Shown here: positions 22,920-36,095 of the stretch, one piece after another
Layout: the number at the start of each line of letters is the position of its first letter
How positions within the stretch are numbered: position 1 is the first letter of the stretch
Source of the DNA: Anaerolineae bacterium
Lineage (GTDB): Bacteria > Chloroflexota > Anaerolineae > Aggregatilineales > Phototrophicaceae
DNA length: 61,903 nt
NCBI GenBank assembly: GCA_023382675.1
Contig: JAHDWN010000027.1
Location: 1-61,903 of the forward strand
Reading direction: 5' to 3'
Notes under the pieces: model-generated
Told to the model about the DNA's origin: nothing
Database searches by the model: none
What the model saw: only the letters and a program-made list of their open reading frames with translations
Program-made: the position numbers and the translations under genes

Positions 22920-24524
22920 CTAATCCCCGACACTGACAGTCGCAGCTTCGCCCTCGGCCTTCATGTCGCGCAGGCCCATGCCCGCAATCATACGGTTGAG
23001 CGCGCTCAGGTAAGCCTTGACGCTGCTGACGAGGATGTCCGGGTCGGCACCGTAGCCGCCGAATGTGCGCTCGCTGTCCGGCGGGGCAATGCTGACCGTG
23101 ACCTCGCCCAGGGCGTCGATGCCCTCGGTGACGCTGTGAACGCTGTACTCAAGAAGACGGCACGGCGCTTTGACAATGCCGTCGATAGCCTTATAGCACG
23201 CATCCACCGGTCCGACGCCGACGGCCGCGTGGACGAACTCGCGCCCGTCGTTGTTGGTCAGCTTGACCGTCGCCGTCGGCATTCCCATCGTCCCGGCCAC
23301 GACCTGCATGTCGTCGAGCTTGAAGAATTCCTGTGGCTTGACGTGCTCCTCGGTCATCAGCGCGACCAGATCAGCATCGGTCACATTCTTCTTCGCGTCT
23401 GCCAGGTCTTTGAAGCGCTCGAAAATCGGCACCAGCGCCTCGCGGTCGAGCTTGTAGCCCAGCTCTTGCAGGCGCACGGCCAGCGCGTGCCGCCCGCTGT
23501 GCTTGCCCAGCACCAGCCGGCTCTTTTCGACGCCGACATCCTCCGGCTTCATGATTTCGTAGGTGCTGCTGTGCTTGAGCATCCCGTCCTGGTGGATGCC
23601 CGCCTCGTGGGCGAAGGCGTTCTTGCCGACGATGGCTTTGTTCGCCTGCACCATCAGGCCGGTGTAATTGCTGACCATCCGGCTCGACTTCATGATCTCG
23701 CGCGTGTTGATATTCGTGCGCAGGCCGTAGTAGGGCTTGCGCGTTTCGATTGCCATCACGACTTCTTCCAGGCTGGTGTTGCCTGCGCGCTCGCCAATGC
23801 CATTGATCGTCACTTCGACCTGGCGCGCGCCCGCGACGACACCGGCCAGGGTGTTGGCCGTCGCCAACCCCAGGTCGTTGTGGCAGTGTACCGACCAGAT
23901 GACATCACTGCCCGGCCCGCCGCCCGGCGTCTCAGCGATCAGATTGCCGATCAATTCGCCGAACTCCGCCGGGATGGTGTAGCCGACCGTGTCCGGGATA
24001 TTGATCGTCGTCGCGCCGCATTCAATCGCCAGCGTGCAGACTTCGACCAGGAAGGCTGGATCGGTGCGCCCGGCGTCCATCGGGCTGAATTCGACATCTT
24101 CGCACAGGCTGCGCGCCAGCGTCACCATCTTGCGGATCACGTCCAGCGCTTGCGGTTTCGTCAGTCCGGTCTGATATTGCAGGTGGATGTCCGACGTGCC
24201 CAGGAAAGTGTGGATGCGCGGCTTGGCGGCGAACTTAACGCCCTCCCAGCAGGTGAGGATGTCCTTCTCGACGGCGCGCGCCAGCCCGGCGATGACGGGG
24301 CCGTCTTCCGTGCCCACGTCGCTGGCGATGCGTTGTACCGCCGCCAGATCATCCGGCGACGCGGCGGGGAAGCCCGCCTCGATGATGTCCACGCCGAGCT
24401 TGGCGAGCTGGCGCGCGATCTCCAGCTTTTCGGCGCTGCCCAGGGTTGCGCCGGGGCTTTGCTCGCCGTCGCGCAGAGTCGTATCGAAAAAGCGGACGAC
24501 GTTGGGGTCAATCTTGCTAGTCAT
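22920..24524 (-). CDS. leuA: 2-isopropylmalate synthase
   Basis: The start is set at [20 protein letters not shown] (24524), with AAGGATC upstream; a longer frame from 24542 would swallow that site. The 534-residue protein has the LeuA catalytic domain ([47 protein letters not shown]) and the C-terminal leucine-binding regulatory domain. It condenses acetyl-CoA with 2-oxoisovalerate, the committed step to leucine, normally inhibited by leucine. A short upstream frame overlaps the start by eight bases. Confidence 0.95.
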
Positions 24525-24597
24525 CGGGAGTGATCCTTTCATGAATCAGGTTCGGTAATCGCGAGCGGCTAAGGTCAGCAAGACCATCTTCAGTCAT
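24517..24597 (-). CDS. Candidate 26-codon upstream frame overlapping the leuA start
   Basis: Starting at 24597 this frame reads [20 protein letters not shown] and six more codons. Its stop (TAG in ATGACTAG) lies inside the first codons of leuA. In front of it is AAGGGGGTGATC, one mismatch from the full complement of the 16S 3' end, a far stronger ribosome site than that of leuA itself. Four of 26 codons are Leu. It may couple ribosomes onto leuA; there is no dense Leu run or terminator as in the ilv leader. Confidence 0.4.
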
Positions 24598-26255: not shown

Positions 26256-27269
26256 CTAATCCGACTGTTTGATCCGCTTGGCGTGCAGGAACGGCATCAT
26301 GTCGCGCAGTTCCTCGCCGACCTGCTCGATCAGCAGGCTGTGCTCACGGTTGCGCCGCGCCTTGAAATTCGGCGAGCTGCTCTTGAACTCCTTGACCCAC
26401 TCCTCGGCAAACGAGCCGTCTTGAATCCGCGCCAGCACCCCGGCGAATTCTTCCTTGACCATGTTCTCGACCTGGTCGCCGATGGTGTAGCCGCCGTATT
26501 CCGCCGTATCACTCACGCTGTACCACATGTAGCTCATGCCGCCTTCGTACATGAGATCGACGATCAGCTTGAGTTCGTGCAGGCATTCGAAGTAGGCGAT
26601 CTCTGGCTGATAGCCCGCCTTGACCAGCGTCTCGAAGGCGGCGCGGATGAGCGCCGTCACGCCGCCGCAGAGTACGGTCTGCTCGCCGAAGAGATCCGTT
26701 TCCGTCTCTTCCTTGAAGGTTGTCTCGATGACGCCCGCGCGCGTGCAGCCAATCGCCCGCGCATAGGCCAGCGCCAGCGCCTTAGCGCTGCCGGTCGCGT
26801 CCTGATGCACGGCCAGCAGACCCGGCGTGCCCGCGCCTTCTTTGAAGACCTCGCGCACGCGGTGACCGGGCGCTTTCGGCGCGACCATCGTCACGTCGAT
26901 GTTCGCCGGCGGCACGATCTGCTTGAAGTGAATGTTGAAGCCGTGCGCGAACATCAGCATCGCGCCGGGCTTCAGGTTCGGCCCGACCGACTCGGCGTAG
27001 ACCTGCCCCTGGATGGTGTCGTGGATCAGGATCATGACGATGTCGGCGGCTTTGGTCGCGTCCGCCACGCTCATGACCTGGAAGCCGTCGGCCTCAGCTT
27101 TGGGCTTGCTGCGCGTGCTGCCCTCGTGCAAGCCGATGATGACTTTGCAGCCGCTCTCCTTGGCGTTGAGTGCGTGCGCGTGCCCCTGGCTGCCATAGCC
27201 GATGATCGCAATCGTCTTGCCGTTGAGCAGGCTCAAGTCTGCGTCCTTGTCGTAGTACATTGTTGCCAT
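26256..27269 (-). CDS. ilvC: Ketol-acid reductoisomerase
   Basis: A 337-residue class I enzyme. The N-terminal NADPH-binding site is [20 protein letters not shown]; the phosphate loop that follows ([14 protein letters not shown]) suggests NADPH preference. The C-terminal knotted domain shows [24 protein letters not shown] and [19 protein letters not shown]. It converts acetolactate or acetohydroxybutyrate to the dihydroxy acid, with Mg2+. It follows ilvN in the usual ilvB-ilvN-ilvC order. Confidence 0.97.
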
Positions 27270-27474: not shown

Positions 27475-27512
27475 TTAGCTAATAGCCGCAGGCTAATAGC
27501 CAACAGCCTAAA
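27475..27512. repeat. Heptanucleotide array at the ilvN stop
   Basis: TTAGCTAATAGCCGCAGGCT and AATAGCCAACAGCC repeat the AGCC theme at 7-nt steps. The ilvN stop codon (27508-27510) is inside the array. Confidence 0.6.
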
Positions 27513-28065
27513 CATGATACCCGTTGGTCGAAGGCTGGGCGGCGCGCTCGTAGCTGCTGTCCAGGATGCGCGTGCCGCGCCCCATCGCCACGACGCCCGT
27601 GCGCACCATCTCGACGATGCCAATCGGCTCCAGCTCGGCGATGCACTGCTCGACCCGGTCTTCCTGGGCCGTGATCTCGACGATGGCGTATTTCGGGCCG
27701 ATGTCAACGATGCGCGCCGGGTAGCGCTCGACAATCGTCGTCAGCGCGTTACGCGATTCGGCATCATCCGAGCGCACCTTGACCAGCGCCAGGTCGCGGC
27801 TGACGTGCAGGTCTGCGCCGACGTTCGCCACGTCGATCACGGGCACCAGCTTGAGCAGGTTCGCCATGATCCGCTGTGGATGCGCGCGGGCGCTGTCAAC
27901 GACAATCGTCATGCGCGAGATGTTCTCGCGGTGCGTGCGCCCGACGCTCAAGCTGTCGATGTTGAAATTGCGGCGGCGAAACAGGTTCGTCACGCGCATC
28001 AGGACGCCGGGTTGGTTTTCGACCAGCGCGACGATGGTGTGTTTACTCGAAGTATTATCTGGCAT
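27508..28065 (-). CDS. ilvN: Acetolactate synthase small (regulatory) subunit
   Basis: The start is set at MPDNTSSKHTIVALVENQPG (28065), with GAGGAG eight bases upstream, giving 185 residues. It has an N-terminal ACT domain (VALVENQPGVLMRVTNLFRR, RRRNFNIDSLSVGRT) and the second IlvN domain (ELALVKVRSD-like DLALVKVRSDDAE, IVDIGPKYAIVEITAQEDRV). It binds valine and controls IlvB. It follows ilvB after a 390-base, repeat-filled gap, which is long for two subunits of one enzyme. Confidence 0.95.
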   Translation of the reverse strand: MPDNTSSKHTIVALVENQPGVLMRVTNLFRRRNFNIDSLSVGRTHRENISRMTIVVDSARAHPQRIMANLLKLVPVIDVANVGADLHVSRDLALVKVRSDDAESRNALTTIVERYPARIVDIGPKYAIVEITAQEDRVEQCIAELEPIGIVEMVRTGVVAMGRGTRILDSSYERAAQPSTNGYHV

Positions 28066-28225
28066 CGAAGCCACTCCTCAAAGTTGATCTCAATCTCGCT
28101 CTACTGTTCCCGCGCCCAGACTCGAGATTTGGACGCCGAACGAAAAGTTGAACCACAGAGACACAGAGGGAAAGGAGTTGAACCGCCAAGCCGCAAAGGC
28201 CACAAAGAGGTTCGTTCCTGACCAC

Positions 28226-28456: not shown

Positions 28457-30160
<1,704 letters not shown>

Positions 30161-30249: not shown

Positions 30250-31182
30250 TCAATCCCCGGCCACCGTTTGCTTGATCGGCGTCAGCCAGCCGTGTCGGTC
30301 TGGCGCGCGCCCGCTGGTGACTGCGAAAAAGGCTTCCTGCACGGCCTGTGTGATCGGCCCGCGCGAGCCGCTGCCGACCTTGATGCGATCTACCGAGCGC
30401 ACCGGCGTGATCTCTGCCGCCGTGCCGGTGAAGAAGATCTCGTCGGCGATGTAGAGCATGTCACGGCTGATGGCTTCGTAGCGCACCTCGTAGCCCAGCT
30501 CCTTGAGCAGGGTGATCGCCGTGTCGCGTGTGATGCCAAGCAGGATCGACGAGGCGATGCCGGGCGTATAAACGACGCCGTTCATCATGACGAAGATGTT
30601 CTCGCCCGCGCCCTCGCTGACGTTGCCGCTGTAATCGAGCGCGATGCCTTCGGTGAAGCCGTTGTCATGCGCTTCCATGGTGATGAACTGGCTGTTGACG
30701 TACTGCCCGCCGATCTTCGCCATCGAAGCGAAGGTATCCGGCGCGATCCGCCGCCACGAGCTGACCTGGACATCGACGCCCTGCTCGATGGCTTCCGCGC
30801 CCAGGTAGCGCCCCCATTCGAAGGCGAAGAGCACGACGTCGGTCGGGTTTTTGCGCCCCTCGACGCCGATGGGGCCTGCGCCGCGAAAAACGAGCGGGCG
30901 GATGTAGCACGCGCCCAGGCCGTTCTTGTTGATCGTGTTCAGGATCGCCTGGTTGATGTCATCCTCGCTGTAGGGGATGTCGATGCGGGCGATCTTCGCC
31001 GAGTTGAACAGCCGGTGCGTGTGCGGCTGCAAACGGAAGACCGCCGGCCCCTGTTCGGTGGCGTAGCAGCGTATGCCTTCGAAGACGCTGCTGCCGTAGT
31101 GCAGCGCGTGCGTGGTGACGTGGACTTTGCAGTCATCCCAGGCGACGAACTCTCCGTTATGCCAGATCCAATCCGAGCGCAT
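30250..31182 (-). CDS. ilvE: Branched-chain amino acid aminotransferase
   Basis: A 310-residue fold-type IV PLP enzyme. It shows ALHYGSSVFEGIRCYATEQG, the PLP lysine in MAKIGGQYVNSQFITMEA, DYSGNVSEGAGENIFVM and FFTGTAAEITPVRSVDRIKV. It transfers the amino group in the last step of Leu, Ile and Val synthesis. GGGGAGA precedes its ATG. It is the first structural gene of the operon, directly behind a 440-base leader that holds the leader peptide and two terminator-like hairpins. Confidence 0.96.
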   Translation of the reverse strand: MRSDWIWHNGEFVAWDDCKVHVTTHALHYGSSVFEGIRCYATEQGPAVFRLQPHTHRLFNSAKIARIDIPYSEDDINQAILNTINKNGLGACYIRPLVFRGAGPIGVEGRKNPTDVVLFAFEWGRYLGAEAIEQGVDVQVSSWRRIAPDTFASMAKIGGQYVNSQFITMEAHDNGFTEGIALDYSGNVSEGAGENIFVMMNGVVYTPGIASSILLGITRDTAITLLKELGYEVRYEAISRDMLYIADEIFFTGTAAEITPVRSVDRIKVGSGSRGPITQAVQEAFFAVTSGRAPDRHGWLTPIKQTVAGD

Positions 31183-31201: not shown

Positions 31202-31230
31202 TGAGCCTCTAGCCTTTAACAATTAGCCGA
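31202..31230. repeat. Weak heptanucleotide array before ilvE
   Basis: AGCCTCT, AGCCTTT, AACAATT and AGCCGAT in 7-nt register, 20-48 bases upstream of the ilvE start. Confidence 0.45.
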
Positions 31231-31270
31231 TAGCGCGTGAACGCTCGGCTGGTGACGGTGTGCGAACTGC

Positions 31271-31326
31271 GGAAAACAAAACGCGCTTTCCGTTTGATTG
31301 CCCGTCTGGGGCACGGAAAGCGCGTT
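31271..31326 (-). terminator. Second terminator-like hairpin in the ilvE leader
   Basis: AACGCGCTTTCCG (minus strand from 31326) pairs perfectly over 13 bp with CGGAAAGCGCGTT, with an inner TGCCC/GGGCA stem. On the minus strand it is followed by TTGTTTTCC. It lies downstream of the attenuator terminator, about 90 bases before ilvE. It could be a second control point or a block against read-through. Confidence 0.6.
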
Positions 31327-31485
31327 GGGCGCTGCACAGGGGCTGCCCGCATCCGCGTGGCAGCGTGGCATCGCGGCGGCAGCCATGAACGGGCGCGCCT
31401 GAGCGCGTCGTTGGTCTGCGGGGTGGGGTCTGCCTTCGTACATGGTCGCTGCCTGCCTGTTTGCCTGCCCTCTGATTCCCTGAAC

Positions 31486-31510
31486 GAAAAAGCCCCCGCT
31501 TGGGGGGCTT
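31486..31510 (-). terminator. Attenuator terminator of the ilv operon
   Basis: On the minus strand AAGCCCCC-CAAGC-GGGGGCTT is followed by a T-run, the shape of an intrinsic terminator. It lies 46 bases after the leader-peptide stop and upstream of ilvE, so it would end transcription before the structural genes. Confidence 0.85.
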
Positions 31511-31553
31511 CTTACTAGTCTGTCTGCTGCACTTCGTCAGCCGCCGCCCAAGC
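31498..31553 (-). promoter_or_regulatory. Candidate antiterminator pairing
   Basis: On the minus strand GCTTGGGCGGC (31553-31543), immediately after the leader-peptide stop, can pair with GCCCCCCAAGC (31508-31498), which is the 5' arm and loop of the terminator. Ten of 11 positions pair, seven of them contiguous at one end. Forming it would prevent the terminator. Confidence 0.6.
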
Positions 31554-31555
31554 CG

Positions 31556-31627
31556 TTACGCTCCACCCGTAATAAGGAGGACTACGATGCTAATAAGGAC
31601 GACGAGAAGCTTGTGCGTTTGATTCAT
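31556..31627 (-). CDS. Branched-chain amino acid leader peptide (attenuator peptide)
   Basis: A 23-codon frame starting ATG at 31627 reads MNQTHK, then LLVVLISIVVLLI, then TGGA and stop. Twelve of 13 consecutive codons in the middle specify Leu, Val or Ile, the three end products of the downstream genes. The peptide starts about 25-30 bases after the predicted transcription start and ends shortly before an antiterminator/terminator pair. This is the ilvL-type attenuation architecture. Its ribosome site is weak. A membrane micropeptide is an alternative reading, but position and structures favour attenuation. Confidence 0.85.
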   Translation of the reverse strand: MNQTHKLLVVLISIVVLLITGGA

Positions 31628-31659
31628 GAGCTTTGGAAAGATTTCACATACTTGTGTAG

Positions 31660-31688
31660 AGCGTAACGAATGTAAAGTGTGTTGTCAA
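31660..31688 (-). promoter_or_regulatory. Sigma70-like promoter of the ilv operon
   Basis: On the minus strand a perfect TTGACA (31688-31683) is followed after 17 bases by TACGCT (31665-31660). Transcription would begin near 31653, giving a 26-base leader before the attenuator peptide. Confidence 0.7.
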
Positions 31689-31854: not shown

Positions 31855-31903
31855 GAGCGCCTTTAGCGCGCTTAGATCTAGCCGACTGGCTTGAGCCGTC
31901 GGC
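31855..31903 (-). repeat. Two-hairpin repeat element, copy C, at the RAYT 3' end
   Basis: On the minus strand GCCGACGGCTCAAGCCAGTC and GGCTAGATCTA lead to AGCGC-GCTAAAG-GCGCT. The first hairpin encodes the last residues and the TAG stop of the RAYT gene. Confidence 0.8.
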
Positions 31904-32459
31904 GGCGCTCGGCGTCGTCCGTCCAGTGCGCCGGATTGTGAACGATGTAGGCGCAAATCTGGTCGTATTCGCGGCGATTGCGGATGATGTGTTCGTAGTA
32001 GTTGCGCTGCCAGGGGCTGCCTTCAAGCAGATCCGCCGCAACGAGGCGGCGCGTGGCGGCAGATTTGAATTGCCCGATGATCGCGCTGAGCGACCCCGCA
32101 TCCGGCCCACGCGGGCGCGCCGCCGAATCCTGCATATCGTCTGTAGGGGCGACCCGCCGGGTCGCCCTCCGCCGGGTCGCCCCTGGCGAATTATCCAGGT
32201 CGATGATCCCGTGCAGGTGGTTGGGCATAACGACGAAGGCATCGAGCGTCACCGTCGGGCGCACGACGGCGGTGTACAGCCATTCGTCGCGCACGATCTC
32301 ACCCAGGGCATTCAAAACCATTTCGCCGTCGATCACGTCGCCGAACAGGCATTGGCGGCGCAGAGTGCAGAGAGTGACGAAATCGGCACGCCCATCGCGA
32401 TAATCGAACCCGCGCAGGCGAATCGACCTGCGGTGATGACGATCGGGGTCAAATGGCAT
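31878..32459 (-). CDS. RAYT: REP-associated tyrosine transposase (Y1/HUH family)
   Basis: A 193-residue single-strand transposase of the IS200/TnpA-REP kind. The HUH motif is in FVVMPNHLHGIIDLD (about residue 78), and WQRNYYEHIIRNRREYDQI near residue 150 carries the family's C-terminal signature and probable nucleophilic tyrosine. Such enzymes cut and join GTAG-marked REP hairpins and are normally single-copy, domesticated. A REP palindrome lies in frame inside the gene (ATRRRATRRVAPTDD), between the HUH motif and the Tyr region, and the C-terminus is formed by a two-hairpin repeat. It may still fold if that loop is tolerated. Confidence 0.85.
   Translation of the reverse strand: MPFDPDRHHRRSIRLRGFDYRDGRADFVTLCTLRRQCLFGDVIDGEMVLNALGEIVRDEWLYTAVVRPTVTLDAFVVMPNHLHGIIDLDNSPGATRRRATRRVAPTDDMQDSAARPRGPDAGSLSAIIGQFKSAATRRLVAADLLEGSPWQRNYYEHIIRNRREYDQICAYIVHNPAHWTDDAERRRRLKPVG
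32143..32183. repeat. GTAG-headed REP palindrome inside the RAYT gene
   Basis: GTAGGGGCGACCC-GCC-GGGTCGCCC followed by a second half-palindrome CCGCCGGGTCGCCCC. It is translated in the minus frame as an Arg/Thr/Ala-rich insertion. Confidence 0.8.
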
Positions 32460-32506: not shown

Positions 32507-32531
32507 GGGCGACCCAGCAGGTCGCCCCTAC
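32507..32531. repeat. GTAG-headed REP palindrome at the STAND gene stop
   Basis: GGGCGACC-CAGCA-GGTCGCCC plus CTAC. The minus-strand GTAG supplies the TAG stop codon of the TIR-STAND gene. Confidence 0.75.
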
Positions 32532-35422
32532 CCCTCATCCTCCCCGCCTTCCGCATCCGCAATCCCGCGCAGCATCTTGTCCGCGTCCTCGATGTAGCCC
32601 ATTATCCGGTAATAGCGTTCGGCCTCGCGCCAGCAGGCAACCGCCGCCGGCATGTCGCCCCGCAATTCGAGCGCCATACCGAGATGGCGTTGGGCTTTGG
32701 CATGGTTGTACGGGGCCTGTTCTGGCGTGAGAAAGCGCAGCGCTTCACGATAGGCTTTGATAGCGAGGTCAAGGTTTTCTTCCCGATTTTCGATCTCGGC
32801 CAGATCAACCAGAACCAGGCCGACATTTTCTTGTGTGAGACTGTAGTCGAGCGGCGCGGCCTCCGGCGTCCTGTAGAGGAGTGCTAATTCGTATGCTTTC
32901 ACTGCGCGCCGCAGGTTGCCCGCCCGATCTTCGACCGCCGCCAGGTCGACATAGGCATTGCCCAGGTTGTTCTGCGTCATGGCGTAGTCGAGCGGCGCGG
33001 CTTCCGGCGTGCGAAAGCGCAGCGCCTGCTCGTAGGCCGTCACTGCGCGGCGCAGGTTGCCCGCCCGGTCTTCGAGCGCCGCCAGGTTGCTGTAGGCAGT
33101 GCCCAGGTTGTTCTGCGTCGTGGCGTAGGCGAGCGGCGCGGCCTCCGGCGTGCGGAAGCGCAGCGCCTGCTCAAAGGCAGCCACCGCCCGGCGCAGGTTG
33201 CCCGCCCGGTCTTCAACCGCCGCCAGATTGCGGTAGGCATTGCCCAGGTTGTTCTGCGTCATGGCGTAGGCGAGCGGCGCGGCCTCTGGCGTCCTGTAAA
33301 GGAGTGCTAATTCGTATGCTTTCACTGCGCGCCGCAGGTTGCCCGCCCGGTCTTCGAGCGCCGCCAGGTCGCGGAAGGCAGCGCCCAGGTTGTTCTGCGT
33401 CATGGCATAGTCGAGCGGCGCGGCCTCCGGTGTGTAGAAGCGCAGCGCCTGCTCGTAGGCGACGACTGCCCGGCGCAGGTTGCCCGCCCGGTCTTCGACC
33501 GCTGCCAGGTTCTGATAGGCAGTCCCCAGGTTGTTCTGCGTCATGGCGTAGGCGAGCGGCGCGGCCTCCGGCGTCCTGTAAAGGAGCGCCTGTTCAAAGG
33601 CCGCCACCGCCCGGCGCAAGTTCTCGCGGCGGTCGCCCAGGGGGTGTTCTTGATAGGCGACGCCCAGGCTGTTCTGAGCGTTTGCGATCAACGCTTCATT
33701 GCCCCCAACTTGCAAAGATGTCAGCGCACGTTCGATCCATTCGAGCCGCTGCAGGTATCGCCCGCGATTGGCGAGAAATGAGCTCACCGCATTCGCCAGC
33801 CAGAGCGCAGCCTCGGCACCCTCGCGCATCGCCCATTCGAAGGCGGCTTCCAGGTTGGCGCTCTCGACATCCAACCCAAGGTAATCCTGCTTGCGGTCGT
33901 GCTCCCGCGCCATCGCCTTGTAGAAATCATAGTGTGGACGCTGGGCACTCTCGTCCTCGCCGCCGACCTCGGTGGCCATCGGGTCGACGGTGTAGCGGCC
34001 TTGGGCATCCATGCTGACGAACTGCCAGCGCTGCAAGCTTTCCAGGGCGGCGGCCAACGCCGCGTCATCCCGGATGGGTGTGGACGTAGGGGCGACCCGC
34101 CGGGTCGCCCGTACAGCGGGATCATCCTCGCCCTCGTCGCCCACCACGCACAGCGCCCGCGCAGCCTCCCAGGTGAAGCCGCCCTGAGTGACGTTGAGGC
34201 GGCGCAGCGCCCAGGCCGGAGCGTCACCCTCGGCGGCGCTCATCTCGCGCAGCGTGCGCCCGATCATATCGTCGAGCGCTCCCTGCACATCGGGGTTGTT
34301 GACGTCCGCCAGCCAGCCGATGACGACATGCACTTGTTGGTGGCTCATCTGCCCGACTGCCCATTCGATCAGCTTGGGGTGATTGCGCCCTTCACGCGCG
34401 ATGTCGTCGGCGCGCTCGGCGATTTTTTCCTGCCTGGCGTCGTGGAAGCGCGCCATATCCGGCACGGCAGCGGCGGCCTCTGCCTGCGCCAGCGCTGCCG
34501 GGTGGACGTGCCTGCCGCCGCGCAGTTCGCGCCAGGCTGCCCGGCTCGTGAGCAGGATCTGCGCCCCGGCGGCGTGCAGCGCCTCAATCCGCTCGACAAA
34601 GGCCGCGCGCCGCTCCGCCTGTTTGACCGACTCGGCATTGTCGAGCACGATCAGCAATTGCCCGCCCGCGCGCACGAGATCGAGCAGGGCGGGCCAGTCG
34701 GTTTCCTTCGGTTGGGCGTAGTGCGCGCGCAGGAGTCCAGTCAGTTCGTCCTCGGTCGTCGTCTCGCCCAGGCGCAGCCAGATCGCCTCGTCCACGTCCG
34801 GGCTGCTGGCGACGATCTCGGCGGCCAGCCGCGACTTGCCCAGGCCGCCGACGCCTTCGATGGTCGTTGGGGCGGCGCGCAGGCAGGTGAGCGCTTCGTC
34901 ATAGGCGGCCTCGCGCCCGCGCATGGGGATGGCGATCAGCTCGCGCGGAATCGGCTGATGCGGCGGTGTCGTGAGCTTGCGGCGTTCGCGCACGAGCGGG
35001 CTGTCTGCCGGATCGAGCGGGACGCTCGCACCCAGCGCTTCAATCAGTTCGCGCATCCCGCCGTCGAAATCGTGCGCCAGATCGACGTACTGGATCGTGC
35101 CCAGCTCTATCGGGACGTCTTCGACTGGCATCGATTCGACCAGCGCGACGTAGAAACCTTTCTCGCGCTGGTCGCGGTGATGGAGCAGGCGCGTCCATTC
35201 CGCCCGGCACCAGCGCGACTGCTTCGCCGCATACGACAGCAGCAGCAGGCCGTGTTGGCAGTCTTTGACCGCCTGCTCAATCTGCTCACCCCAATATTCA
35301 CCGACCGGGATGCCCTTGCGGTGATCCGCCCAGGGGATCAGCGACGCGCGCTCCAGCGCCGCGCAGACACGGTCGCACATGGTATCATCGGCGGTGGCAT
35401 GGCTGACGAAGATTTGGCTCAT
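32528..35422 (-). CDS. TIR-STAND ATPase with TPR repeats (NLR-like conflict protein)
   Basis: The start is MSQIFVSHATADD at 35422, with GGAGG seven bases upstream; the open frame extends further but only through a repeat element. The 964-residue protein has a TIR domain (residues 1-130; SRWCRAEWTRLL carries the usual catalytic Glu) and an NB-ARC-like ATPase with Walker A GVGGLGKS near residue 190 and Walker B LLIVLDNAE near 257. At about 595-930 follow seven 47-residue TPR units. TIR domains of this kind degrade NAD+ or make signalling nucleotides when the STAND module oligomerises. A defence role is inferred. A REP palindrome is inserted in frame near residue 440. Confidence 0.85.
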   Translation of the reverse strand: MSQIFVSHATADDTMCDRVCAALERASLIPWADHRKGIPVGEYWGEQIEQAVKDCQHGLLLLSYAAKQSRWCRAEWTRLLHHRDQREKGFYVALVESMPVEDVPIELGTIQYVDLAHDFDGGMRELIEALGASVPLDPADSPLVRERRKLTTPPHQPIPRELIAIPMRGREAAYDEALTCLRAAPTTIEGVGGLGKSRLAAEIVASSPDVDEAIWLRLGETTTEDELTGLLRAHYAQPKETDWPALLDLVRAGGQLLIVLDNAESVKQAERRAAFVERIEALHAAGAQILLTSRAAWRELRGGRHVHPAALAQAEAAAAVPDMARFHDARQEKIAERADDIAREGRNHPKLIEWAVGQMSHQQVHVVIGWLADVNNPDVQGALDDMIGRTLREMSAAEGDAPAWALRRLNVTQGGFTWEAARALCVVGDEGEDDPAVRATRRVAPTSTPIRDDAALAAALESLQRWQFVSMDAQGRYTVDPMATEVGGEDESAQRPHYDFYKAMAREHDRKQDYLGLDVESANLEAAFEWAMREGAEAALWLANAVSSFLANRGRYLQRLEWIERALTSLQVGGNEALIANAQNSLGVAYQEHPLGDRRENLRRAVAAFEQALLYRTPEAAPLAYAMTQNNLGTAYQNLAAVEDRAGNLRRAVVAYEQALRFYTPEAAPLDYAMTQNNLGAAFRDLAALEDRAGNLRRAVKAYELALLYRTPEAAPLAYAMTQNNLGNAYRNLAAVEDRAGNLRRAVAAFEQALRFRTPEAAPLAYATTQNNLGTAYSNLAALEDRAGNLRRAVTAYEQALRFRTPEAAPLDYAMTQNNLGNAYVDLAAVEDRAGNLRRAVKAYELALLYRTPEAAPLDYSLTQENVGLVLVDLAEIENREENLDLAIKAYREALRFLTPEQAPYNHAKAQRHLGMALELRGDMPAAVACWREAERYYRIMGYIEDADKMLRGIADAEGGEDEG
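32665..33630. repeat. 141-bp tandem coding repeats in the TPR region
   Basis: The sequence around GCAGGTTGCCCGCCCGGTCT recurs at exactly 141-base steps (for example 32911, 33052, 33193, 33334, 33475, 33616). Units differ by few substitutions. Each encodes one 47-residue TPR unit with NLRRAV, TPEAAPL and TQNNLG. Confidence 0.9.
34086..34110. repeat. GTAG-headed REP palindrome inside the STAND gene
   Basis: GTAGGGGCGACCC-GCC-GGGTCGCCC, the same as in the RAYT gene. It is translated in frame (AVRATRRVAPT) between the ATPase and TPR regions. Confidence 0.8.
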
Positions 35423-35502
35423 GGGCATCCTCCGGCGCGCGGGGTGTGTGTTACCGGAGATTGTACGCCTGTAAGAGCGGCGTGGCAAAGAGCGGCGGGC
35501 GT

Positions 35503-35685
35503 TCGGAAATGGGGGCAAATGCGCCATTTCGTCGCCGGGGAATGAAATCCCCCGTCTAAACGTGCGCCTCCTACGGAGGCTGTTCGGCGCGATGACTGCT
35601 GAAACAGCCCTCGAAGAGGGCGTTTTCATAGCCCGTCCCATTTCATGGGCGGGCGCGCCCCAAAACTCGAATGCACCCGGCAAAG
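35503..35685 (+). repeat. ~180-bp multi-hairpin repeat element, copy 2
   Basis: Same order of hairpins as copy 1: GGGGAATGAAATCCCC, GCCTCC-TAC-GGAGGC, CAGCCCTCGAAGAGGGC and CCCGTCCCATTTCATGGGCG. It lies in the divergent gap between the TIR-STAND gene and the YrdB gene; nothing else is seen in 35423-35762. Confidence 0.85.
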
Positions 35686-35762
35686 CGGGTTCGAGCTTCC
35701 CCTCTGCACAAAGCCGTGAGCCGGTGCTATGATTCGCCGCGCGCCGCCCTGCGGAGATCATC

Positions 35763-36095
35763 ATGCTCAAACTGCTCAATCTTGCGCTGCGCTTCCTGCT
35801 CGAAATCTGCATCCTGATCGCATTGGGCTACTGGGGATTCAACAGCAGCGATGAGACGCTGCCGCGAATCGCGGCTGGCATTGGCGCGCCGCTGCTCGCC
35901 GCCATCAACTGGGGCATATTTGTCGCGCCCGCCTCGCGCCGCCGCCTGCAGGATCCGCTGCGGCTGCTGGTCGAGATCGTCATCTTCGCGGCTGCCGTCC
36001 TGGCGCTGGCTGCTGCCGGTCAGCCAACGCTCGCCCTCATCTTCGCTGTCGTCACCGCCATCAATATCTCGCTCGTTCGCCTCTGGAAGCAGTGA
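35763..36095 (+). CDS. YrdB family (DUF2568) small membrane protein
   Basis: A 110-residue protein with four hydrophobic helices. The sequence LNLALRFLLEICILIALGYW, then GIGAPLLAAINWGIFVAPAS and LVEIVIFAAAVLALAAAGQ, matches the YrdB/DUF2568 family (Bacillus YrdB-like). Function unknown. It is followed after 15 bases by the SRPBCC gene and a coupled membrane gene, so the three form a small operon. Confidence 0.82.
   Translation: MLKLLNLALRFLLEICILIALGYWGFNSSDETLPRIAAGIGAPLLAAINWGIFVAPASRRRLQDPLRLLVEIVIFAAAVLALAAAGQPTLALIFAVVTAINISLVRLWKQ

Follow-up and report, generated by a model that had tools for sequence, protein, structure and literature searches.

The window analysed here, a 61,903-nt stretch of an Anaerolineae (Chloroflexota) genome, carries on its minus strand a candidate leader-peptide attenuator (31486-31688) followed by genes of branched-chain amino acid (BCAA) biosynthesis. 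The promoter and the short Leu/Val/Ile-rich frame, both reported by a sequence-only reading of this DNA, were read directly from the minus strand. The promoter (31660-31688) consists of TTGACA at 31688-31683, a spacer of 17 nt and TACGCT at 31665-31660. The leader peptide open reading frame (ORF), MNQTHKLLVVLISIVVLLITGGA (31556-31627), starts with the ATG at 31627, has 23 codons and ends with TAA at 31558-31556; 12 of the 13 control codons (codons 7-19) encode Leu, Val or Ile and the remaining one encodes Ser. Region 2, the 5' strand of the antiterminator (GGCTTGGGCGGC, 31543-31554), starts one base past the leader stop codon. In the intrinsic terminator with its T-run (31487-31513), the arms AAGAAGCCCCC (31513-31503) and GGGGGCTTTTT (31497-31487) form an 11-bp stem around the 5-nt loop CAAGC; the hairpin was determined at -17.8 kcal/mol, with a z-score of -3.94 against 200 dinucleotide shuffles. 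Region 3 (GCCCCCCAAGC, 31498-31508), which comprises part of the terminator 5' arm and the loop, pairs with region 2: GCTTGGG of region 2 is exactly complementary to CCCAAGC of the arm end and loop, and an additional GGC pairs with GCC beyond one mismatch. The pairing segment and the terminator of the earlier reading were thus both recovered. The terminator and the antiterminator are mutually exclusive, both using region 3.

Downstream, on the same strand, the ilvE-ilvB-ilvN-ilvC genes that had been proposed as an operon all scored above their NCBIfam cut-offs: ilvE, branched-chain aminotransferase (30250-31182; TIGR01122, 414.6 bits, cut-off 245.55), ilvB, acetolactate synthase large subunit (28457-30160; TIGR00118, 766.3 bits, cut-off 538.35), ilvN, acetolactate synthase small subunit (27508-28074; TIGR00119, 150.1 bits, cut-off 56.9), and ilvC, ketol-acid reductoisomerase (26256-27269; TIGR00465, 445 bits, cut-off 226.15). 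The leuA gene for 2-isopropylmalate synthase (22920-24542, minus strand; TIGR00973, 663.4 bits, cut-off 598.7) lies past two further ORFs, one GNAT-like (NCBIfam, below the cut-off) and one with no match. The gene identities of the proposed operon therefore stood; because of the two extra ORFs before leuA and the 382-nt gap between ilvB and ilvN, a single transcript for ilvE-ilvB-ilvN-ilvC and leuA is what we infer rather than observe.

Short ORFs in which 9 or more of 13 codons encode Leu, Ile or Val and which precede a terminator were sought on both strands of the window: only one was found, and 20 first-order Markov simulations of the window, scanned likewise, gave none. The string TTGACA-N16-18-TANNNT occurred 4 times in the window vs 0.41 expected; no exact copy was found between the terminator and ilvE, where weaker promoters are possible.

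The sequence-only reading would have been refuted by relatives lacking the short frame or its BCAA codons; both were conserved. An ilvE orthologue (E below 1e-130) was present in 33 of the 37 family genomes, a full one being absent from G011, G014, G034 and G036. G007 was excluded, as its 366 nt of upstream DNA contain the terminator and the leader would lie past the contig end. Among the 32 family genomes with enough upstream DNA, 31 had a leader with 9-13 Leu/Ile/Val codons in 13 upstream of ilvE. Together with ten further named loci these form a set of 41 leaders; duplicates, N_L039, N_L042, N_L049 and the partial L063 were removed from the locus set, and five f7/f8 family genomes and L048, which have leaders and a different terminator sequence, were omitted from the 41-row alignment. 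Twelve named loci have a distantly related ilvE (L050-L061), most of them carrying titles of other phyla and one being an Anaerolineales metagenome-assembled genome; no leader was detected in any of the twelve. The control cores of the 41 leaders consisted of Leu (31%), Ile (29%), Val (26%) and Ser (9%), the three BCAAs being used about equally, and the Leu/Ile/Val fraction was 0.85 in frame compared with 0.32 and 0.01 in the other two frames. In each of the 41 aligned loci, the top-scoring site within 120 nt 5' of the leader was a promoter counterpart, TTGAC[A/T]-16/17-TAnnnT (TTGACA in 39, TTGACT in 2; spacer of 17 nt in 40, 16 nt in 1), with p<0.05 against shuffles in 37 of them. An intrinsic terminator between the leader and the first gene was found by script in 39 of the 41.

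The pairing of region 2 with the terminator arm and loop covaries. RNAalifold, run unguided on the 41-sequence alignment A1, chose the antiterminator, i.e. region 2 with the terminator arm and loop; 87.8% of the cells were paired and double changes were seen in 7 of the 11 pairs. The number of double-changed cells was 20 compared with 5.9 (standard deviation 2.1) in shuffles, none of the 500 shuffles reaching 20, and slid control versions of the antiterminator gave 1-9; relatedness among the genomes inflates such counts. The compensated pairs include GTTTGGG/CCCAAAC in G003 and G019 and GCGGG/CCCGC in G032, three genomes of different genera. The mean energy of the region 2:3 duplex was -19.6 kcal/mol vs -10.4 with shuffled region 2 (n=39; sets of this size omit G008 and G027, and sets of 37 omit G006 and G017 as well). 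This comparison placed region 2 at a constant position, which is wrong for G006 and G017; their weak values stay in the mean.

An RNA model, R1, was built only from the stretch 3' of the control codons, and hence contains no BCAA codons. In the own genome it gave one strong match, the locus itself (66.2 bits), the next reaching 17.7 bits (E 2.57). It matched 101 of the 151 genomes of the order, by listing 88 of the 95 family genomes and 13 of the 56 others, 30 of the unmatched genomes being assigned outside the family from their position in the ordered genome list. Of these matches, 35 places were read, gene names being assigned from the translated starts: 20 in the family (from 57 newly matched genomes) and 15 outside. 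All 20 family places had a leader with at least 10 Leu/Ile/Val in 13 and ilvE downstream; three of them repeat leaders used in the model, so that the genuinely new result is 17 of 17. Outside the family, 13 of the 15 places had a leader with at least 9 in 13, preceding ilvD (11), ilvB (1) or ilvE (1); of the other two, one had a weak leader (7/13) before leuB and one had none. The leaders before ilvD in other families of the order (L235, L236, L238-L242, L244-L246, L249) indicate that the element can precede different BCAA genes. One additional place in the own genome has a GCTTGGG/CCCCAAGC pattern. Neither an ORF with tandem Trp codons before trpE nor, in the stretch read, a BCAA leader at the second ketol-acid reductoisomerase-like gene (G000:C13:60884-61312, L002) was found in the own genome.

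Beyond the order, ilvB-upstream DNA was read in 70 of 85 matched genomes of one set and in 56 of 91 of the set outside the class. A BCAA leader with a terminator was detected upstream of ilvB in 30 of the 71 genomes read in the class outside the order and in 8 of the 56 outside the class, with the hairpin 96-108 nt from the stop codon in two of these eight. The antisense control, covering 134 loci (two genomes entered twice), gave none. As only leaders before ilvB were counted, these numbers are lower bounds.

The codon choice within the leaders was shifted. Leu control codons were CTT or CTC in 156 of 164 cases in the 41 leaders vs 27% in ilvE, where CTG accounted for 46% of Leu codons. The shift to CTT/CTC and to ATT held in the 17 new leaders, in the 13 of other families and in 39 leaders of the class and phylum, while the preference of GTA over GTG was weaker in the further leaders (GTG 17% in the 17 new ones). 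Overall, Leu was encoded by CTT/CTC, Ile by ATT and Val by GTC/GTA, with CTG at 5-15% and GTG at 2-17%; the corresponding values in ilvE or ilvB were 46-56% and 34-51%. Slow decoding or avoidance of RNA structure is a possible cause of the shift.

The anatomy, its conservation and the covariation of the 2:3 pairing argue strongly that the element is a ribosome-mediated transcription attenuator of the ilvE-ilvB-ilvN-ilvC(-leuA) operon, and we consider this reading of the sequence highly probable. RNA polymerase would start some 25 nt before the leader ORF. With ample charged Leu, Ile and Val tRNAs, the leading ribosome would reach the stop codon and its 3' edge would cover region 2 (GGCTTGGG, one base past the stop); region 3 would then be free for region 4, and the terminator would halt transcription. 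Shortage of Leu, Ile or Val would stall the ribosome within the 12 control codons; region 2, left exposed, would capture region 3 as soon as that is made, so that transcription could proceed into ilvE. Occlusion by the terminating ribosome would here take the role of a 1:2 hairpin. In an equilibrium masking model, in which the ribosome edge was assumed to lie 12 nt on and a ribosome at the stop codon covers the GGCTTGGG core, the mean terminator probability with the ribosome at the stop codon was 0.94. In the window it was 0.07 with the ribosome six codons before the stop.

Several observations weigh against this reading. The window leader ATG has no visible Shine-Dalgarno sequence, and the family genome G025 has no leader despite ample upstream DNA. 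The native region 2:3 duplex was only modestly better than duplexes with region 2 swapped between genomes (-19.6 vs -17.4 kcal/mol), a small gap which is explained by both strands being nearly invariant. With stalls at codons -14 to -3, the mean terminator probability of the model went down only to 0.57-0.77 (medians 0.66-0.93, n=37); at codon -6 it was below 0.5 in 15 of 39 genomes, the terminator winning in the other 24, and in the window, stalls at codons -7 to -10 gave 0.62-0.83 and those at -4 and -3 gave 0.87-0.89. As the terminator wins at equilibrium for most stalls, the model implies that the switch must be largely kinetic. Finally, mutations of the leader codons of Streptomyces coelicolor ilvB were without effect on regulation (PMC1262725), so that such anatomy can mislead.

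The sequence-only reading had described the mechanism as textbook ribosome stalling. The anatomy, conservation and covariation agree with that description; a conserved 1:2 protector hairpin, which also belongs to it, was not found. A fully classical trp-type attenuator, in which leader codons pair with region 2 and an untranslated leader also terminates, is therefore a possible but rather doubtful alternative. The core Ser codon was AGC in 45 of 48 cases, with Leu next in 32 of 48, and the resulting AGCC could pair with GGCT of region 2; strong leader-region 2 duplexes were seen in single genomes (z -3.0 in G018, -2.8 in N_L044, -2.2 in N_L046), and in 8 of the 41 loci at most 4 of 40 swapped leaders equalled the native pairing. 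On average, however, these duplexes did not exceed shuffles in strength (mean z -0.29, n=37), and in 33 of the 41 loci at least 5 of 40 swapped leaders paired with region 2 as well as the native one; individual genomes may nevertheless have a protector hairpin. As no conserved protector hairpin was found, it is probably the ribosome finishing the leader that masks region 2. Such masking is still permitted in G006 and G017, where the leader ORF extends through region 2.

In relatives, a Gly-Gly pair is conserved before the leader stop codon, and CGGGTTATAA can form a local hairpin with the control codons GTACTCG. Compared with codon permutations, the minimum free energy of this hairpin had a mean z of -0.75 (standard error of the mean 0.15, n=41; relatedness uncorrected), with p<0.1 in 9 of 41; it was no better than permutations in the window (p 0.69) and in the nearest relative (p 0.70). 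The local hairpin is thus put forward as a suggestion.

Between the attenuator and ilvE there is a second terminator-like hairpin (31280-31326, minus strand) with a perfect 14-bp stem, a 19-nt loop and a T-rich tail (z -4.73). Of the 31 loci in which the leader stop and ilvE are more than 200 nt apart, 26 have such a hairpin (no shuffle control); none was found in the 10 loci with less than 200 nt, where there is little room. Its arms co-change, as read by eye, for example GCGCCTATCGTC/GACGATAGGCGC and GCGCTTGCC/GGCAAGCGC. In 12 relatives (L006, L010, L014, L017, L018, L019, L022, L027, L031, L036, L037, L038) an unannotated ORF of about 60-70 codons lies between the terminator and ilvE, its end overlapping the second hairpin; it has the motifs SPWTEAYQ and PTHDALSDIYN with varied third positions. 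The window contains a weak possible counterpart of 75 codons (31216-31443, minus strand) that has diverged from the conserved form. Of the small ORFs of the relatives, three were scanned and none had a Pfam match above the cut-off (best E 0.034). Judged from these sequences, the hairpin and the small ORF could form a second, translation-dependent terminator. Tentatively, a two-stage Chloroflexota switch may be considered, though we hold it for rather unlikely as a whole: a protector-less BCAA attenuator whose region 2 is masked by the terminating ribosome itself; a pause of RNA polymerase, in many relatives, at a local hairpin formed by the control codons and the Gly-Gly-stop segment; and a second terminator with its 5' arm in the end of the second small ORF, ilvE being reached only if that ORF is translated.

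The second conserved hairpin, together with the poor T-runs after the first hairpin in G008 and G027 (where the hairpin is visible though the script found no terminator), also speaks for a leader that acts on translation initiation or via Rho, or that senses general translation speed, the first hairpin being a simple terminator. This is improbable: region 3 is common to the terminator and the covarying antiterminator, and the distance from the leader stop to ilvE is 98-425 nt, which places the hairpin far from the ilvE start in most loci. Still less credible is a small membrane protein with its own terminator and no regulation, which would account for a very hydrophobic peptide. The core residues are nearly only Leu, Ile, Val and Ser (2 Phe, 5 Ala, no Met and no Trp among 533), beyond the demands of hydrophobicity, and the membrane reading was rejected on this composition; moreover, region 2 covaries with the terminator, and R1 recovered leaders of this kind in front of BCAA genes. 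The idea that a BCAA-rich frame lies by chance ahead of an ordinary terminator, for which no point in favour was found, can practically be dismissed on the conservation, the covariation and the simulations.

On the far side of the attenuator, just upstream of the promoter, the window contains a gene that matches REP-associated tyrosine transposase below the cut-off (31878-32459, minus strand) and then an ORF of 1094 aa (32528-35812, minus strand) that by eye seems to combine a TIR-like start and an NTPase-like middle with near-identical repeats at the C-terminus.

The leader peptides of the E. coli and Salmonella ilvGMEDA and ilvBN operons contain mixed Leu, Ile and Val codons. The attenuators of these leaders (PMC1183508) resemble the one described here, by description and not by sequence, in the mixed-BCAA leader, the mutually exclusive antiterminator and terminator and the BCAA operon; they differ in that here a conserved 1:2 protector hairpin was looked for and not found, a single base separates the stop codon from region 2 and ilvE is the first gene. 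The Corynebacterium ilvBNC attenuator, or ilvB-II motif, likewise has a BCAA-rich upstream ORF, a terminator and an antiterminator (PMC10272879, PMC11857589). A title cited there reports the lack of a ribosome binding site, and the C. glutamicum control codons are CUU and GUA. In Corynebacterium, an anti-antiterminator hairpin spans most of the upstream ORF and the peptide usually has 15-17 aa with fewer BCAA codons, compared with 9-13 of 13 here. The Mycobacterium and Streptomyces ilvB leaders share the short ORF with Ile/Val/Leu codon runs and the terminator; there the ORF overlaps the candidate terminator, whereas here a covarying antiterminator is present (PMC1262725). The Staphylococcus aureus ilvD attenuator also has a Leu-rich peptide before an ilv-leu operon and alternative folds, and its proposed antiterminator pairs with the U-tail, in contrast to the 5' arm and loop here (PMC5794164). 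An Rfam scan of the window gave no match at the gathering threshold. The best leader family, Trp_leader (RF00513), showed a sub-threshold resemblance around the terminator (19.8 bits vs a gathering threshold of 41), and the leader here has no Trp codons; the best sub-threshold match of all, asX2, was discarded, being on the opposite strand.

Control of BCAA operons by leader-peptide attenuation has been described or predicted for Proteobacteria, Actinobacteria and Firmicutes (PMC1183508, PMC1262725, PMC10272879, PMC11857589, PMC5794164). T-boxes and riboswitches have been described in Chloroflexi, and the Rfam amino acid attenuators may stem from gamma-proteobacteria (PMC3766115). The sequence-only reading had held such an attenuator to be unknown in this kind of organism. 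In the open-access literature (subscription papers lying outside the search), no report of one in Chloroflexota was found among the matches listed, which agrees with that view; the ilvB-OMG motif, with representatives "from various bacterial phyla" (PMC10272879), may include Chloroflexota. The element is thus a regulator of a known kind, and the listed open-access matches contain no report of one from this phylum.

With this finding, amino-acid-sensing attenuation would reach a phylum whose members are mostly uncultured, the antiterminator covarying throughout an entire family. It is also relevant to the question of whether the mechanism is ancient or arose repeatedly. It also provides a ready-made RNA model whose predictions were upheld on new genomes, and through the shifted leader codons and the apparently missing protector hairpin the design rules of attenuators become testable by comparison. 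For the organisms themselves it means that these Chloroflexota probably sense a shortage of Leu, Ile and Val by a mechanism like that of E. coli.
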